From Janthinobacterium lividum (GTDB taxonomy: Bacteria; Pseudomonadota; Gammaproteobacteria; Burkholderiales; Burkholderiaceae_D): a stretch of DNA of 64,000 bases. Within the stretch, counting starts at the first letter, position 1. Each line of letters starts with the position of its first letter. This document shows, piece after piece, positions 4,776 to 11,191 of the stretch. A model generated the notes under the pieces. It saw only the letters and a program-made list of their open reading frames with translations, had not been told where the DNA came from and did no database searches. The stretch lies in NCBI RefSeq assembly GCF_034424625.1, contig NZ_CP139976.1, positions 868,001-932,000 on the forward strand. Direction: 5' to 3'. The translations under genes were made by a program, and so were the position numbers.

Positions 4776-6406
4776 TGCGCCGCGCTCTCGTCCTGCTCGA
4801 CACGGATTTTGACGGCGCCCGCTTGCGCGCCGCCTGTGCGGCGCATGGCGGCCGCCGCCTCCATTACATCGCGCTGGCGCCGCGTCCCGTCGATGCGCGC
4901 CACTTGCCCGAGCAGTGGCGTGCACAGTGGCCGCCCTGCGTGCCGGGCCTGCACCGCATGGTGTCGCACGATGGCCTCGTCACGCTCGATGTGCTGATCG
5001 GCGAGCCCGATGCCTGCCTGGCGCAATTGTCGGCGCGAGTCGATGAAGTACACCTGGCCTGGGTGCCCGCAGCCACGCCGGTGCTGGCGCGCCTGATGAT
5101 GGACGGCGCCCGCCTGCAGGCCGTGCACCTGGACGAGGCGCAGCGCGCCGCCCTGCAAAAGAATGGGTTTGTCTTCGACGAGAGCCGCCTGCGCGCCGTG
5201 TTTTATGCGCGGCGCGAAGAGTACGCGGCCGTTACCGTGCCCGAGCGGCGCGCCATCGTCATCGGCGCGGGCGTGGCCGGCGCGGCCGCCTGCGAACGGC
5301 TGGCCGCGCGCGGCTGGAAGGTGACCTTGATCGAGCGCCACGCGCAGCCGGCCAGCGAGGCGTCGGGCAACCTGGCCGGCATCTTCATGCCGCTGATGTC
5401 GAAGGACGACAATATCGCCACGCGCCTGGTGCGCACCGCCTACCTGTACTCGCTGAGCCGCTGGAAAGACCTGGGCGGCATCGGCGCCGCCATCGTGGGT
5501 GTGCAAAGCGGCGTGCTGCACCTGGCGCGCGACGGCGCGCATGCGCAGGTGCAGCGGCAGATCGCCGCCAGTGGCCTGTATCCGCGCGAATTCGCCCGCT
5601 GGCTGGAAGCGCCCGAGGCGAGCGCCATGCTGGGCGCGCCGGCGCCCGATGGTGCCTGGTGGTTCGAGCAGGGCGGCTGGGCGCGCCCGTCTTCCGTCTG
5701 CGCGGCCATGCTGGACGCCTGCGGCGCCTTGCTCACGCGGCGCTTTTCCAGCAGCGCCCTGCGCCTGGAGCGTGGCGATGAGGAATGGCTGGTGCGCGAT
5801 GCGCAAGGCACCTTGATCGCGGCCGCGCCCACCGTCATCCTGGCGGCCGGCACGGGGGCCGTCGATTTCGAGCAGGCGGCGGGCCTGCCGCTGGACGCCG
5901 TGCGCGGCCAGGTCACGCACCTGGCCGAAGGCAGCTTGCCCTCGTTGCCGTTCGTCGTCTGCCGCGAAGCCTACATGACGCCGGCGCACCAGGGTGTCGT
6001 CTGCGTGGGCGCCAGCTACGATGCCGATGCGGACACCGACTTGCGCCCATCGAGCCAGGAAGACAATATTGGGAAGATCGCCGACATCCTGGGCGTCGCC
6101 CCGTTCGATGCGCCGCTGGCGGGCCGCACGGGATTTCGCTGCATGGCGCCGGACCGCCTGCCGCTGGCGGGCGCCTTGCCCGACCCCGGCGTCCCAGGCC
6201 GCTGCGAGCGCCTGCGCGACGTACCGCGCTGGCCTGGCCTGTTTGGTTTGCTCGGTTACGCCTCGCGCGGCCTGATCTGGGCGCCGCTGGCGGCCGAGCT
6301 GCTGGCATGCCAGCTGGAGGGCGAGCCGCTGCCGCTGGAACGTCAGTTGGCAGAGGCGCTCGATCCTGCCCGTTTTTTACTTCGCGAACGCCGCCGCGCT
6401 GCTTGA
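4775..6406 (+). CDS. mnmC: MnmC-like FAD oxidoreductase with degenerate methyltransferase domain
   Basis: MnmC converts cmnm5(s2)U34 of tRNA to nm5 (C-terminal FAD oxidase) and then methylates it to mnm5 (N-terminal domain). The 543-residue product has a clear C-terminal oxidoreductase: GAGVAG at residues 164-169, ERHAQPASEASGNLAG, and FRCMAPDRLPLAG near the end. The first 155 residues align in layout with the methyltransferase half (LHYIAL, WPPCVPGLHR, LDVLIGE), but the usual glycine-rich SAM loop is replaced by LDTDFDGARL and the DGFAP-type catalytic segment by EVHLAWVPA. The domain is also short, so methylation activity is doubtful. The start overlaps the tag stop. Confidence 0.8.
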   Translation: MRRALVLLDTDFDGARLRAACAAHGGRRLHYIALAPRPVDARHLPEQWRAQWPPCVPGLHRMVSHDGLVTLDVLIGEPDACLAQLSARVDEVHLAWVPAATPVLARLMMDGARLQAVHLDEAQRAALQKNGFVFDESRLRAVFYARREEYAAVTVPERRAIVIGAGVAGAAACERLAARGWKVTLIERHAQPASEASGNLAGIFMPLMSKDDNIATRLVRTAYLYSLSRWKDLGGIGAAIVGVQSGVLHLARDGAHAQVQRQIAASGLYPREFARWLEAPEASAMLGAPAPDGAWWFEQGGWARPSSVCAAMLDACGALLTRRFSSSALRLERGDEEWLVRDAQGTLIAAAPTVILAAGTGAVDFEQAAGLPLDAVRGQVTHLAEGSLPSLPFVVCREAYMTPAHQGVVCVGASYDADADTDLRPSSQEDNIGKIADILGVAPFDAPLAGRTGFRCMAPDRLPLAGALPDPGVPGRCERLRDVPRWPGLFGLLGYASRGLIWAPLAAELLACQLEGEPLPLERQLAEALDPARFLLRERRRAA

Positions 6407-6433
6407 GCGTAGGCGCAGAGCAGGCGAGGGCTA

Positions 6434-6496
6434 GGGGCAGACCCCCAACACCGCTGACGCCAAGCCTGGCGCCAACGCGTGTGAGGGTCTGACCCC
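6434..6496. repeat. GGGTCTGACCCC-type palindromic intergenic repeat
   Basis: GGGGCAGACCCCC (6434-6446) and GGGTCTGACCCC (6485-6496) are near-copies of the same palindrome, 38 bp apart, with an internal hairpin around CCAAGCCTGGCGCC. The layout resembles a paired REP element. It follows the mnmC-like gene and could also act as a transcript end. No other copy was found in the window. Confidence 0.5.
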
Positions 6497-6619
6497 ATAC
6501 ACCGACCCCATATACGTTTTTCAGCTTTCCAAACTCTTTTTAATTTGTTTTCCGAACAACATAAGTTCGCTACAGTGGACTCGTGCTGGTTTTTGACGAC
6601 GGAATAAAGAGGTGGAAAG

Positions 6620-7117
6620 ATGGCTGCTGCAGAACTGATTTTCGATCCCCGCGCCGGGCACGGCGAGGCGGCCTTTGACGAGGTACTCAATCTCGCGCGC
6701 GCCCAGGCGCAGGCGCAGGGCTTGCCGTATGCGGGTATCGTCAGCGCGCAGGATGCGTGGCAGCTGGTGCAGGCCGGCAAAGCCGTGCTGGTCGACGTGC
6801 GCACCAACGAGGAACGCACCTTCGTCGGCTACGTGCCGGCCTCGCTGCACGTGGCGTGGGCGACCGGCACGTCCATGAACCGCAATCCCCGCTTTACGCG
6901 CGAACTGGAAGCGAAGGTGGGCGGCAAGAATGCCGTCGTGGTGCTGCTGTGCCGCAGCGGCAAGCGCTCGGCCGCAGCCGCCGAAGCGGCCGCCAAGGCA
7001 GGTTTCACGCATGTCTTCAATATCGCGCAAGGCTTCGAGGGCGACCTCGACGAGCAGCAGCAGCGTGGCCACAGCGGTGGCTGGCGCTGGCATGCGCTGC
7101 CTTGGCTGCAAGATTAA
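6620..7117 (+). CDS. Rhodanese-like sulfurtransferase domain protein
   Basis: The 165-residue protein is a single rhodanese domain: VLVDVRTNEER, FVGYVPASLHV, and the active-site loop CRSGKRS, whose cysteine would carry a persulfide. Rhodaneses move sulfane sulfur between donor and acceptor proteins, which fits its place as first gene of a sulfur cluster with serine acetyltransferase, encapsulin and cysteine desulfurase. An AAGAGGTGGAAAG ribosome site precedes the ATG. It has no export signal, so it is cytoplasmic. Only 19 bases separate it from the next gene. Confidence 0.9.
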   Translation: MAAAELIFDPRAGHGEAAFDEVLNLARAQAQAQGLPYAGIVSAQDAWQLVQAGKAVLVDVRTNEERTFVGYVPASLHVAWATGTSMNRNPRFTRELEAKVGGKNAVVVLLCRSGKRSAAAAEAAAKAGFTHVFNIAQGFEGDLDEQQQRGHSGGWRWHALPWLQD

Positions 7118-7136
7118 CTCTCTTCCCGGGACCACC

Positions 7137-8132
7137 ATGAACCAGCGAGCCATTCCCCCTGTCTCCCTTGCCGCGCAGCCGCAATGGGAACTGCGCCAGA
7201 TCGTCGATGAATTGCGCGCCGTGCGCGAGCAATGGCGCGATGGACTGGCCAGCAATCAGGAGTGCGGCGCGCGCGAATTCCCGTCGCGCCAGCATTTGCA
7301 CGACATCATCAAAGCCCTGTGCGCAGCCCTGTTCCCCATGCGCCTGGGTCCCCTTGACCTGCAGCAGGAGAGCGAGGATTTCTTTGTCGGCCATACGCTC
7401 GACACGACCTTGACGGGGCTGCACGAACAGGTGCGGCGCGAGCTCAGTTACCACGCGCGCCAGCATGGCTTGCAGCAGACGGTCTCCATCGAACAGCAGG
7501 CGCTGGCCATCGTGCAGCGCTTCGCCCGCGCGCTGCCGCGCATCCGCGCCCAGCTCGACACGGACGTGGCGGCCGCCTTCCATGGCGACCCGGCCGCGCA
7601 CAGCGTCGATGAGGTGCTGCTGTGCTATCCGGGCATCCTGGCCATCATCCACTACCGCCTGGCGCACACCCTGTATGCGCTGGGCGCGCCGCTGGTGGCA
7701 CGCATCATCGCCGAAGTGGCCCATTCGCAGACGGGCATCGACATCCACCCGGGCGCCATCATCGGCAGCAGTTTTTTCATCGACCATGGCACCGGCGTGG
7801 TGATCGGCGAGACGGCCATCATCGGCGAACGGGTGCGCATTTATCAAGCCGTGACCCTGGGCGCCAAGCGCTTTCCCGCCGGCGCCGACGGCGTGCTGAA
7901 AAAGGGACTGGCGCGCCATCCCATCGTGCAGGACGACGTGGTCATTTATGCGGGCGCGACGATCCTGGGACGGGTGACCATCGGCCAGGGCTCGGTCATC
8001 GGCGGCAATGTCTGGCTGACCCGCAGCGTGGCGCCCGGCAGCCATGTCACGCAAGCGCATAACCAGCAGGAGGCGCAGGAGCTGCCGGAGTTGCCGGCGC
8101 CATCCCATCCCGCTTTTGCCCACCACCCATGA
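7137..8132 (+). CDS. cysE: Serine O-acetyltransferase (EpsC/CysE type)
   Basis: The enzyme makes O-acetylserine from serine and acetyl-CoA, the carbon acceptor for sulfide in cysteine synthesis. The 331-residue protein has a long alpha-helical N-terminal domain (about 1-200) as in EpsC-type enzymes and a left-handed beta-helix of hexapeptide repeats (about 205-310). The repeats include IDHGTGVVIGE with the catalytic histidine, and QAVTLGAK. The ATG at 7137 is chosen because upstream codons overlap the rhodanese gene and read as Arg/Ser-rich noise. Serine acetyltransferase genes are known companions of family 2A encapsulins. Confidence 0.92.
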   Translation: MNQRAIPPVSLAAQPQWELRQIVDELRAVREQWRDGLASNQECGAREFPSRQHLHDIIKALCAALFPMRLGPLDLQQESEDFFVGHTLDTTLTGLHEQVRRELSYHARQHGLQQTVSIEQQALAIVQRFARALPRIRAQLDTDVAAAFHGDPAAHSVDEVLLCYPGILAIIHYRLAHTLYALGAPLVARIIAEVAHSQTGIDIHPGAIIGSSFFIDHGTGVVIGETAIIGERVRIYQAVTLGAKRFPAGADGVLKKGLARHPIVQDDVVIYAGATILGRVTIGQGSVIGGNVWLTRSVAPGSHVTQAHNQQEAQELPELPAPSHPAFAHHP

Positions 8133-8139
8133 GGACAGC

Positions 8140-8364
8140 ATGTTGATCAAACAGTTTGGACTGGCCGTGCGCCAGTTACGCGAAGGGCATGGCTGGTCGC
8201 AGGAGCGCCTGGCCGAAGCGGCCGACTTGAACCGCTCGTTCATCGGCGAGATCGAACGGGGCGCCGCCACGCCGTCGCTGCTGACGGTGGAAAAGCTGGC
8301 CGGCGCACTGGGCATCGGCCTGGCGGGATTGATGGCGCGCTGCGAGCCGGAATTGGTGGATTGA
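8140..8364 (+). CDS. Small XRE-family HTH regulator
   Basis: This 74-residue protein is essentially one Cro/C1-type helix-turn-helix: VRQLREGHGWSQERLAEAADLNRSFIGEIERG followed by PSLLTVEKLAGALG, closely matching XRE domains. A GAGGA ribosome site overlaps the stop of the acetyltransferase gene, so it is co-transcribed with it. It has no sensor or dimerisation domain beyond the HTH. Because it sits between the biosynthetic genes and the encapsulin promoter, it is a good candidate for a local regulator of the nanocompartment; this is inference. Confidence 0.85.
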   Translation: MLIKQFGLAVRQLREGHGWSQERLAEAADLNRSFIGEIERGAATPSLLTVEKLAGALGIGLAGLMARCEPELVD

Positions 8365-8403
8365 GGCGGGTCGATTAAACGCCGCGTTGATGGCGATAGC
8401 ATG

Positions 8404-8432
8404 TTGAGAGAAGAGGGGAGACGTCCGATACT
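8404..8432 (+). promoter_or_regulatory. Candidate sigma-70 promoter of encapsulin-desulfurase
   Basis: TTGAGA (8404-8409), a 17-base spacer and GATACT (8427-8432) lie in the 117-bp gap before the encapsulin gene. An AT-rich tract follows up to a GGAG ribosome site seven bases before the ATG. It suggests the shell and cargo genes can be transcribed apart from the upstream three genes. Confidence 0.45.
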
Positions 8433-8481
8433 TTATTCGTTTTTCAGATAAGCATATTCACTTTTCTCATCAGGAGTAGTC

Positions 8482-9411
8482 ATGGCAGAAGCAACAGAGA
8501 ACCAGTTCGCGCTGGGCGATAACGCCGCGCGCCAGCTGGCCAATGCAAGCAAGAGCGTCCCCCAGTTATCCACGATCACGCCGCGCTGGCTCGTGCACCT
8601 GCTGCAATGGCTGCCTGTGGAAGCGGGTATCTACCGCCTGAACCGCGTGAAGAATCCGAAGGACGTGCGCGTCGCCTGCTCGCAGCGCGACGAGTCGGAA
8701 CTGCCGCAAACCTTCGTCGACTACGACGACCAGCCGCGCGAGTATTTCCTCAATGCCGTCAGCACGGTGCTCGACGTGCACACGCGCGTGTCGGACCTGT
8801 ACAGCAGCCCGCACGACCAGATCAAGGAGCAGCTGCGCCTGACCATCGAGACGATCAAGGAGCGCCAGGAAAGCGAGTTGATCAACAATCCCGACTACGG
8901 CCTGCTGGCCAGCGTGCACGACGACCAGCGCATCTTCACCCTGACGGGCGCGCCCACGCCGGACGACCTCGACGAACTGCTGACGAAAGTGTGGAAGGAG
9001 CCGGGCTTTTTCCTCGCGCATCCGCTGGCCATTGCCGCTTTTGGCCGCGAATGCACGCGCCGCGGCGTGCCGCCGCCGACCGTCAGCCTGTTCGGCTCCC
9101 AGTTCCTCACGTGGCGCGGCGTGCCGTTGGTGCCATCGGACAAACTGCCGATCGAAGACGGCAAGACGAAAATCATCTTGTTGCGCGCGGGCGAACAGCG
9201 GCAGGGCGTGATCGGCCTGTTCCAGCCTGGCTTGGCGGGCGAGCAAAGCCCGGGCCTGTCCGTGCGCTTCATGGGCATCAACCGCCATGCGATTTCGTCC
9301 TATCTGATTTCGCTGTATTGCTCGCTGGCCGTGCTGACCGACGATGCGCTGGCCGTACTGGAAGACGTGGAGATCGGTAAATACCATGACTACCCAGACA
9401 CCTACAAGTGA
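8482..9411 (+). CDS. Family 2A encapsulin nanocompartment shell protein
   Basis: The 309-residue protein resembles SrpI of Synechococcus and other family 2A encapsulins, HK97-fold proteins that self-assemble into icosahedral shells. Recognition rests on the N-terminal ARQLANASKSVPQ.S.ITPRWL segment, the long E-loop/helix part (DLYSSPHDQIKEQLRLTIETIKERQE), the central FGRECTRRGVPPPTV and the C-terminal GINRHAISSYLISLYCSLAVL. The gene context is also diagnostic: it overlaps by 26 bases a cysteine desulfurase with a long disordered N-terminal extension. The shell is expected to enclose that enzyme and act in sulfur storage or cysteine use. No phage genes are nearby, which argues against a capsid remnant. 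Confidence 0.9.
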   Translation: MAEATENQFALGDNAARQLANASKSVPQLSTITPRWLVHLLQWLPVEAGIYRLNRVKNPKDVRVACSQRDESELPQTFVDYDDQPREYFLNAVSTVLDVHTRVSDLYSSPHDQIKEQLRLTIETIKERQESELINNPDYGLLASVHDDQRIFTLTGAPTPDDLDELLTKVWKEPGFFLAHPLAIAAFGRECTRRGVPPPTVSLFGSQFLTWRGVPLVPSDKLPIEDGKTKIILLRAGEQRQGVIGLFQPGLAGEQSPGLSVRFMGINRHAISSYLISLYCSLAVLTDDALAVLEDVEIGKYHDYPDTYK

Positions 9412-11191
9412 TGGCGCGGCGGGCTTGCCTGCCGTCCCGTTCTTACCTGATGAAGCGACCCTGAACCGCCTGGCCGGTGAATTCTTTGCCCGCCTGCCGG
9501 GCTTGGCGCCTGTGCTTGACAAATCGCCCAGCCTCGGTGGTTCCGGCAGCGTGCTCGATGCGGCGCCCCGCTATGCGAACCGGCCGCCGCCGCAGCCCGG
9601 CCCTTCGTTTGCCGCCATCGCCCCCGGCGTGGCGACGGCGCAGGTGCCGCCCGTGACGGCGCCGCTGGAGTCGCCGATTGCACCGGCGCCGGCCTCCGTG
9701 CCGACGCCACGCCTGTCCGCCCTGAGTGCGCCGTCGCCTTATTATTTTGTCGGCGGCGCGCATGGCTATCCCGTGTCGAACGGCAAGCTCGACGGCCTGG
9801 CGCAGCAGGGGTTGGGACAAGCGGCACCCGACGATGTGCGGGGACTGTTTGCCACGCCGCAGCAGACACCCGCGCGCCAGCTGCCCGTATCGTCGGCTAA
9901 CAGCCCGCCCGCGTTCTATTTCCAGACCGAGCTGCCTTCGGCGGCGAAGCCTGGCCAGCACCAGACGCCGGCGCCGTTCGACGTGCATGCCGTGCGGCGC
10001 GATTTCCCCGTGCTGGCCGAACGGGTCAACGGCAAGCCGCTGGCCTGGTTCGACAATGCTGCCACCACGCACAAGCCGCAGTCCGTGATCGACCGGGTGT
10101 CGTATTTCTATGCGCACGAAAATTCGAACATCCACCGCGCGGCGCACGCATTGGCGGCGCGCGCCAGCGATGCGTATGAAGCGGCACGCGCCAAGGTGGC
10201 GCAGTTCCTCGGCGCCGCTTCGCCCAATGAAATCATTTTCGTGCGTGGCGCCACCGAGGGCATCAACCTGGTCGCCAACACCTTTGGCCGCAAATACATC
10301 GGCAGCGGCGACGAGATCATCGTCTCGCAGCTCGAGCACCACGCCAACATCGTGCCGTGGCAGCAGCTGGCGGCGGAAAAGGGCGCGACCCTGCGCGTGA
10401 TTCCCGTCGACGACAGCGGGCAGATACTGCTCGATGAATTCCGCAAGCTGCTCAACGGGCGTACCAAGCTGGTGTCCGTGACGCAGGTGTCGAATGCATT
10501 GGGCACCGTGACGCCCGTGGCGCAGATCATCGCGCTGGCGCACGCGGCCGGCGTGCGCGTGCTGGTCGATGGCGCGCAAGCCGTGTCGCATTTGCGCGTG
10601 GACGTGCAGGCGCTGGGCGCCGATTTTTATGTCTTCTCGGGCCACAAGGTGTTCGGTCCGACGGGCATCGGCGCCGTGTATGGCAAGGCGGACTTGCTGG
10701 AGCAATTGCCGCCATGGCAAGGGGGCGGCAACATGATCGCCGACGTCACGTTCGAGCGCACCGTCTACCAGGGCGTGCCGAACCGTTTCGAGGCGGGCAC
10801 GGGCAATATTGCCGACGCCGTGGGCCTGGGCGCGGCCATCGACTACGTGCAGCGCATCGGCCTGGAAAACATCGCCGCCTACGAGCACGCGCTGCTGGAA
10901 TATGCGACGCACCACCTGCAGGCGATTCCTGGCGTGCGCCTGATCGGCACGGCGTTTGACAAGGCCAGCGTGGCCTCGTTCGTGCTGGCCGGTTACGAGC
11001 CGGCGGAAGTGGGGCGGGCCCTGAACGACGAGGGCATCGCCGTGCGCTCGGGCCACCACTGCGCCCAGCCGATTTTGCGCCGTTTCGGCGTAGAAGCGAC
11101 CGTGCGGCCATCGTTCGCCTTCTACAATACGTATGAGGAAATCGACCGCATGATCGTCGTGGTCAAACGCCTGGCGGCCGCACGCCGCTGA
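9386..11191 (+). CDS. Cysteine desulfurase, encapsulin cargo (SufS-like with disordered N-terminal extension)
   Basis: The 601-residue protein has a SufS-type catalytic domain from about residue 198 (FDVHAVRRDFPVL). It includes NAATTHKPQ, the PLP lysine K421 in FSGHK, and the active-site cysteine C559 in RSGHHCAQP. It releases sulfur from cysteine as an enzyme persulfide. Residues 1-197 are Pro/Ala-rich and low complexity, with short conserved-looking islands: LPDEATLNRLAGEFF (20-34), SPYYFVGG (117-124) and PAFYFQTELP (175-184). Known family 2A cargo desulfurases use such extensions for shell loading. The start at 9386 lies inside the encapsulin gene, so the pair is translationally coupled. 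Confidence 0.92.
   Translation: MTTQTPTSDGAAGLPAVPFLPDEATLNRLAGEFFARLPGLAPVLDKSPSLGGSGSVLDAAPRYANRPPPQPGPSFAAIAPGVATAQVPPVTAPLESPIAPAPASVPTPRLSALSAPSPYYFVGGAHGYPVSNGKLDGLAQQGLGQAAPDDVRGLFATPQQTPARQLPVSSANSPPAFYFQTELPSAAKPGQHQTPAPFDVHAVRRDFPVLAERVNGKPLAWFDNAATTHKPQSVIDRVSYFYAHENSNIHRAAHALAARASDAYEAARAKVAQFLGAASPNEIIFVRGATEGINLVANTFGRKYIGSGDEIIVSQLEHHANIVPWQQLAAEKGATLRVIPVDDSGQILLDEFRKLLNGRTKLVSVTQVSNALGTVTPVAQIIALAHAAGVRVLVDGAQAVSHLRVDVQALGADFYVFSGHKVFGPTGIGAVYGKADLLEQLPPWQGGGNMIADVTFERTVYQGVPNRFEAGTGNIADAVGLGAAIDYVQRIGLENIAAYEHALLEYATHHLQAIPGVRLIGTAFDKASVASFVLAGYEPAEVGRALNDEGIAVRSGHHCAQPILRRFGVEATVRPSFAFYNTYEEIDRMIVVVKRLAAARR

Follow-up and report, generated by a model that had tools for sequence, protein, structure and literature searches.

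How is the building of an encapsulin compartment timed relative to the enzymes that work beside it? To our knowledge this matter is largely open, and it is raised by a gene cluster in a 64,000-nucleotide stretch of the Janthinobacterium lividum contig NZ_CP139976.1 (assembly GCF_034424625.1, positions 868,001 to 932,000; hereafter the window, whose own numbering gives the coordinates of its features), where genes for a rhodanese, a serine O-acetyltransferase (SAT), a small XRE regulator, the shell of a family 2A encapsulin and the cysteine desulfurase that forms its cargo follow one another on the forward strand. Here, we report that the presence of the regulator gene is tied to a conserved operator, O1, located at a predicted promoter of the shell gene, and we propose that the cluster is probably a two-unit operon, in which a regulator resembling the controller (C) proteins of restriction–modification systems turns on the shell and cargo after the rhodanese, the SAT and itself.

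An operator that follows the regulator gene

The loci compared were drawn from best-match lists of capped length, and near relatives are therefore over-represented among them; from 119 loci, 73 were retained upon dereplication, with the exclusion of L001–L027 and L029 (same genus), of loci with less than 150 bases upstream of the shell and of near-duplicates. The regulator is present in 42 of these 73 loci (XRE+), and in the other 31 (XRE−) none of the reading frames of 45 aa or more in the locus stretch matches the XRE profile. A repeated TTGATGGCTATAGCATGTTGA was first spotted in the intergenic sequences, and none was noticed in XRE− loci. In the window, the corresponding operator O1, TTGATGGCGATAGCATGTTGA, spans 21 bp at positions 8387–8407 (+). 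With a matrix applied in a leave-one-out manner, a site of at least 8 bits was recovered in 39/42 XRE+ loci versus 0/31 XRE− loci (Mann–Whitney p = 5e-13), the counts at a 6-bit threshold being 39/42 and 1/31. O1 is moreover the lone site at two or fewer mismatches in its own 6.76 Mb genome, and exactly one such site per genome, each adjoining the shell by coordinates, was found in nine of nine genomes (its own and eight chosen by hand).

To relate these presences to the phylogeny, we used a tree of the shell, SAT and cargo (IQ-TREE, LG+G4, quick run), on which XRE presence changes 14 times, 11 of these changes being forced by well supported branches. Across 11 independent pairs taken from this tree, O1 tracks XRE in 10.8 on average (p ~0.001). 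In the three XRE+ loci that lack O1, the third helix of the regulator (residues 32–39 in the structural model) is altered, reading SYISEIECG versus GE(I/V/L)ER or near forms in the others. Taken together, these observations make the binding of the regulator to O1 a strongly supported prediction. By eye, a putative replacement operator can be seen in L056, L117 and L119. At three or fewer mismatches, the full palindromic operator has 20 places in the own genome; one perfect operator-like palindrome, TTGGTGGCGATCGCCATCAA, stands at C1:693951 (L192, 1052–1071), some 23 bases ahead of an unrelated reading frame whose match to a methyltransferase model falls short of the cut-off. We do not claim this palindrome as a target of the regulator, although a second target may exist.

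O1 lies at the predicted shell promoter

A promoter scan placed the −35 element of the shell promoter, TTGAGA, at 8404–8409 (+), overlapping O1, and its −10 element, GATACT, at 8427–8432 (+) after a 17-nt spacer. In an alignment on O1 comprising 40 sites (39 plus L119, from a rescan with the full matrix), every base of TTGA in the −35 is conserved at 39/40 sites, and positions 2, 4 and 6 of the −10 read A, A and T at 33/40, 30/40 and 36/40 sites. The conserved columns thus come in the order O1, a little-conserved stretch, then the −10, with the −35 beginning at the terminal TTGA of O1. The pattern TTGA-N19-NANNNT occurs in 31/42 XRE+ loci (2.0 in shuffles) versus 2/31 XRE− loci (0.85 in shuffles). 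A strict promoter rule is passed by 5/42 XRE+ loci as compared with 2.75 in shuffles, which suggests that the shell promoter is weak. If transcription is assumed to start 7 nt after the −10, O1 would be centred at about −42, which is the position of class II activators such as lambda cI and CRP.

Further operators were predicted in some loci. Exactly 21 bp downstream, between the −35 and the −10, a second operator ranks first of 130 offsets in 8/40 loci, when 0.3 would be expected; the mean operator score at +21 reaches a z of 2.1, below the means at −10, −4 and +17, and scores above 2 occur at +21 in 5/40 loci and, O1 itself aside, at none of the other offsets listed. Upstream of the rhodanese, an operator-like palindrome (p ≤ 0.01) is present within 200 nt in 15/32 XRE+ versus 1/20 XRE− loci, and within 100 nt in 11/32 versus 1/20. 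An operator-like site also stands 29 nt before the rhodanese of L103 (Rhizobacter), where no XRE was detected. In the same upstream region, an [AT]TTCGTT element was observed in 14/32 XRE+ and 9/20 XRE− loci (about 1 in shuffles); within 6420–6619, the window shows it in a diverged form only, by eye. A candidate CysB box at TTTATTCGTTTT upstream of the shell, which we take to resemble such a box, was dropped: the sequence occurs twice in exact form in the genome, and the second copy is inside a reading frame whose neighbours appear phage-like by inspection. The consensus of CysB is itself described as very weak (PMC11329422, excerpt).

A regulator akin to controller proteins

The regulator gene (8140–8364, +) encodes a 74-aa XRE protein matching the HTH_3 profile. 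Its best matches in the PDB are C.BclI (2e-9) and C.AhdI (7e-9), its structural model (pLDDT 95) comprises just the five helices of a helix-turn-helix (HTH) domain, the top Foldseek match of this model is again C.BclI (TM 0.88), and PADLOC assigns it to Control_protein (5.4e-15). By sequence and modelled fold, the regulator is thus predicted to be a homologue of restriction–modification C proteins, its nearest relatives.

A profile built from 16 XRE proteins (A1) was then run on 294 genomes of the family, with at most 19 candidate matches scored per genome. At least 63 matches reached 85 bits and, of those listed, 62 lie within 112–700 bp of a shell, versus 0/7 for the next seven listed (below 81 bits). 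Judged by these scores, the encapsulin-linked regulator is a dedicated clade. The sole orphan among the listed strong matches belongs to a genome of the same genus (G002, L183) and occupies the same interval between an MnmC-like gene and a kinase gene. SAT and XRE remain there, tblastn found no rhodanese, shell or cargo in 12 kb, and the O1 core was looked for and not found, a masked stretch in this locus limiting the latter result; sequence inspection suggests a TonB-receptor-like reading frame after the XRE gene. In L184 (G057), two consecutive XRE genes precede the shell, each followed by its own O1.

Activation, repression or a passenger gene

We propose that this family 2A cysteine-sulfur operon would be divided into two transcription units. 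The first, unit 1, would comprise the rhodanese, the SAT and the regulator, read from a presumed promoter upstream of the rhodanese, and unit 2 the shell and cargo, read from the weak internal promoter. A dimer of the regulator would bind O1, whose right half includes the −35 of the internal promoter, and would from there help RNA polymerase transcribe unit 2. The SAT would make O-acetylserine for cysteine, the desulfurase, loaded via its N-terminal domain, would remove sulfur from cysteine within the shell, and the rhodanese would be the likely sulfur acceptor outside; it is plausible that cysteine enters and that persulfide is handed to the rhodanese or sulfur stored. More tentatively, it is possible that a controller recruited from a restriction system delays the shell and cargo until the rhodanese, the SAT and, in some loci, the cysteine synthase CysK have been made, and that at high level it shuts off the early unit or itself via the extra operators.

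The geometry of O1 bears directly on the sign of this regulation. A site that overlaps the −35 would equally suit a repressor, which at O1 would block this element and keep the shell and cargo off until removed or diluted, and the second and rhodanese-upstream operators, where present, also occupy positions fit for a repressor. However, the spacing of O1 and the promoter is nearly invariant, the promoter is weak, the 74-aa protein with five HTH helices in its model offers no visible effector domain for release, and C proteins activate from the distal site (PMC4321490 and PMC4041747, excerpts). On this geometry, we consider activation the probable mode of action and repression less likely. It is conceivable, albeit very improbable, that the locus is an ordinary one-transcript family 2A operon with the HTH gene as a passenger and O1 as a leftover of a shared ancestral intergenic stretch. 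In favour of this reading, the cluster type is already known, and the gap separating SAT from shell is below 100 bases in 18 of the 29 XRE− loci where it was measured. Against it, O1 is conserved when the majority of the 19 columns that come next vary, its distance to the shell ranges from 61 to 213 bases with coding or non-coding sequence around it, and it tracks the regulator in about 11 independent pairs.

Activation of the shell and cargo by a C-protein-like regulator at O1 has nonetheless several observations weighing against it. The 31/73 loci devoid of the regulator imply that the system does not require it. Among 40 shuffles per locus, the highest score attained 8 bits in 7/42 loci, and once 19 bits; the three XRE+ loci without O1 form one clade and hence count as one event; the stop codon of XRE coincides with the TGA of the motif in 8/40 loci, so that conservation there may be partly coding; and O1 could partly travel with XRE as one block. 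As for the second operator, it is not top-ranked in 32/40 loci, it was not recovered in the window (rank 6/130, score −17.7), and in seven of the eight loci with this site O1 ends at the XRE stop, which may reduce them to few events. No operator was found before the rhodanese in the window and in eight other Janthinobacterium loci (p 0.075–0.48), and feedback on unit 1 is accordingly not supported here. Finally, the best NCBIfam model for the regulator is the antitoxin Y4mF (49.9 bits, below the cut-off of 71.65) and its PHROGs matches are general phage regulators; as these point elsewhere, the link to C proteins relies on the PDB sequence, fold and PADLOC matches.

Gene content of the cluster

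The sequence-only reading had recognized the five gene products on one strand and proposed a profile search of the shell, and the profiles bear it out, with shell, cargo and SAT above curated cut-offs and all genes on the forward strand. The shell (8482–9411, +, 309 aa) matches NF041162 encap_f2a with 542.3 bits (cut-off 380) and the SrpI-like family PF19307. It fits family 2A better than 2B, since the 2B model NF041163 gives 429.4 bits (cut-off 400) and aligns over part of its profile only, and since there is no inserted cyclic-nucleotide-binding (cNMP) domain, SrpI-like being the sole Pfam match at E ≤ 0.001 in its 309 aa. The nearest solved shell structures are PDB 8t6r (E 4e-179, residues 6–309), which we take to be an Acinetobacter shell, and SrpI (6x8m, E 3e-153). 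A family 1 identity was discarded, the family 1 model PF04454 having no match at E ≤ 0.001 across the own genome.

The cargo (9386–11191, +; 601 aa counted from a probable ATG start) matches NF041166 f2_encap_cargo1 with 883 bits (cut-off 800) and consists of an N-terminal loading-type domain followed by a SufS-like domain, the nearest solved structure for the catalytic part being 8kg1. Its motifs stand at positions 29 (LAGEFF), 117 (SPYYF), 418 (SGHK) and 555 (SGHHCAQP), the latter two presumably representing the pyridoxal-phosphate lysine motif and the cysteine motif. The former two correspond to the loading motifs published for the cargo family, LARLANEFFS and AASPYYFLDG (PMC8049743, excerpt). 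By their profile matches, shell and cargo are thus assigned to the desulfurase type of family 2A encapsulins; by analogy with published relatives, the shell would assemble into icosahedral particles of HK97 fold, load the cargo and hold the desulfurase in its lumen.

The rhodanese (sulfurtransferase; 6620–7117, +; PF00581, 55.5 bits) has relatives in the compared loci, where they precede SAT or XRE, and displays an active-site-type loop, CRSGKRS, whose Cys111 we assume to have the active-site role. The SAT (7137–8132, +) is of the EpsC type: it exceeds the EpsC cut-off (NF041874, 154.6 versus 150 bits) and stays below that of CysE (162.2 versus 210.65), both scores being computed on a longer reading frame (6930–8132). 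The gaps, which had been described as short, are so between rhodanese and SAT (19 bases) and between SAT and XRE (7 bases); the XRE/shell gap measures 117 bases and contains the operator and promoter. The 26-base overlap of the shell and cargo coding sequences (9386–9411, +), also part of the earlier description, holds, and an overlap of exactly 26 bases recurs in 51/73 dereplicated loci with cargo starts chosen by script, hinting at a translational coupling of both genes.

Distribution of the cluster

Counting the own genome each time, a shell was found in 29/40 genomes of the genus, 86/294 of the family sample, 40/399 of the order sample and 7/369 of the class sample. Once G226 (a 20-bit shell match) was left out, 85 shell-bearing genomes of the family sample (n = 294) remained, and the regulator adjoins the shell in 61 of them, among the matches listed. 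Together with its presence in the 42 dereplicated loci, this speaks against the five-gene form being peculiar to this genome; the survey of gene order that had been suggested found rhodanese–SAT–XRE–shell–cargo to recur widely across loci. Among named relatives, those closest to the locus are Janthinobacterium, and in 12 named loci of this genus (L030–L040, L043) the cluster is flanked by an MnmC-like gene upstream and a kinase gene downstream. Most of the XRE+ loci with a name carry betaproteobacterial labels, and two come from metagenome-assembled genomes labelled Moraxellaceae and Verrucomicrobiaceae. Among the class-level relatives L186–L189, tblastn found no XRE in 3.9 kb, and the top O1 score was 9.6 bits, inside the cargo part of L187. 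About 1 kb of extra sequence separates rhodanese from SAT in 11 loci; in L080, this insert (5697–6674) is the cysteine synthase CysK (TIGR01139, 456.7 bits, cut-off 351), as would suit a unit that helps to supply cysteine. Two shell matches were of unusual form: that of G200 (C1:375481–376863) is in two pieces within a single frame of 500 aa and may represent a 2B shell, and that of G171 (C1:5010721–5011604) consists of two overlapping pieces.

Comparison with known systems

The association of shell, cargo, SAT and rhodanese is already known. The systems of Synechococcus elongatus SrpI (6x8m) and of 8t6r have the same shell and cargo families, loading motifs and linked SAT and rhodanese, and, among accessory genes, these two have been described as showing the strongest enrichment in family 2A desulfurase operons (PMC8346489, section 8, part 1). 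SrpI and its desulfurase increase under sulfate starvation, and S. elongatus knockouts have no growth defect (PMC8049743, excerpt). The main text of PMC8049743 contains no mention of XRE, helix-turn-helix or transcriptional regulator, and that of PMC8346489 none of XRE; as far as the accessible text of these two papers goes, published family 2A systems have no described operator or second promoter-bearing unit, whereas the window is predicted to have both. Likewise, a search of open-access main texts returned no regulator or operator for encapsulin operons of this type, PMC8987985 alone naming encapsulin and XRE as whole words, in unconnected places of its accessible text. What looks new is therefore a regulator shared by many relatives, with its own conserved site at the shell promoter. 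This regulator is encoded by one gene, each of nine genomes has just one close match to its site, and its predicted operator and promoter are defined, with regulator-free relatives serving as natural controls. If the proposal is true, a C-protein-type circuit would operate outside restriction–modification; on the more tentative reading, a capsid-derived compartment would be governed by a delay circuit like those of restriction systems.

Compared with C-protein systems, the operon includes no restriction or methyltransferase gene, which makes the regulator controller-like and not a member of a restriction–modification system. Its gene lies in the upstream unit, unlike in those systems, L184 being an exception where a second copy follows the operator, and its operator is TGGCTATAGCCA-like when the canonical C-protein motif is GACT/AGTC (PMC4321490, excerpt). 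For C.Esp1396I and its relatives, recruitment of sigma/RNA polymerase is ascribed to the distal site, and repression, once the protein has reached a high level, to the proximal one (PMC4041747 and PMC4321490, excerpts). C.BclI, C.AhdI and C.Esp1396I are, like the regulator, small single-domain HTH proteins, and are its nearest relatives by sequence and fold; they share with it an operator with a palindromic core at the −35 and, in some loci, a candidate second downstream operator and an operator at another promoter. This likeness in the protein, in the operator position and, in some loci, in the putative tandem sites suggests that the encapsulin regulator may follow the same logic as C proteins.

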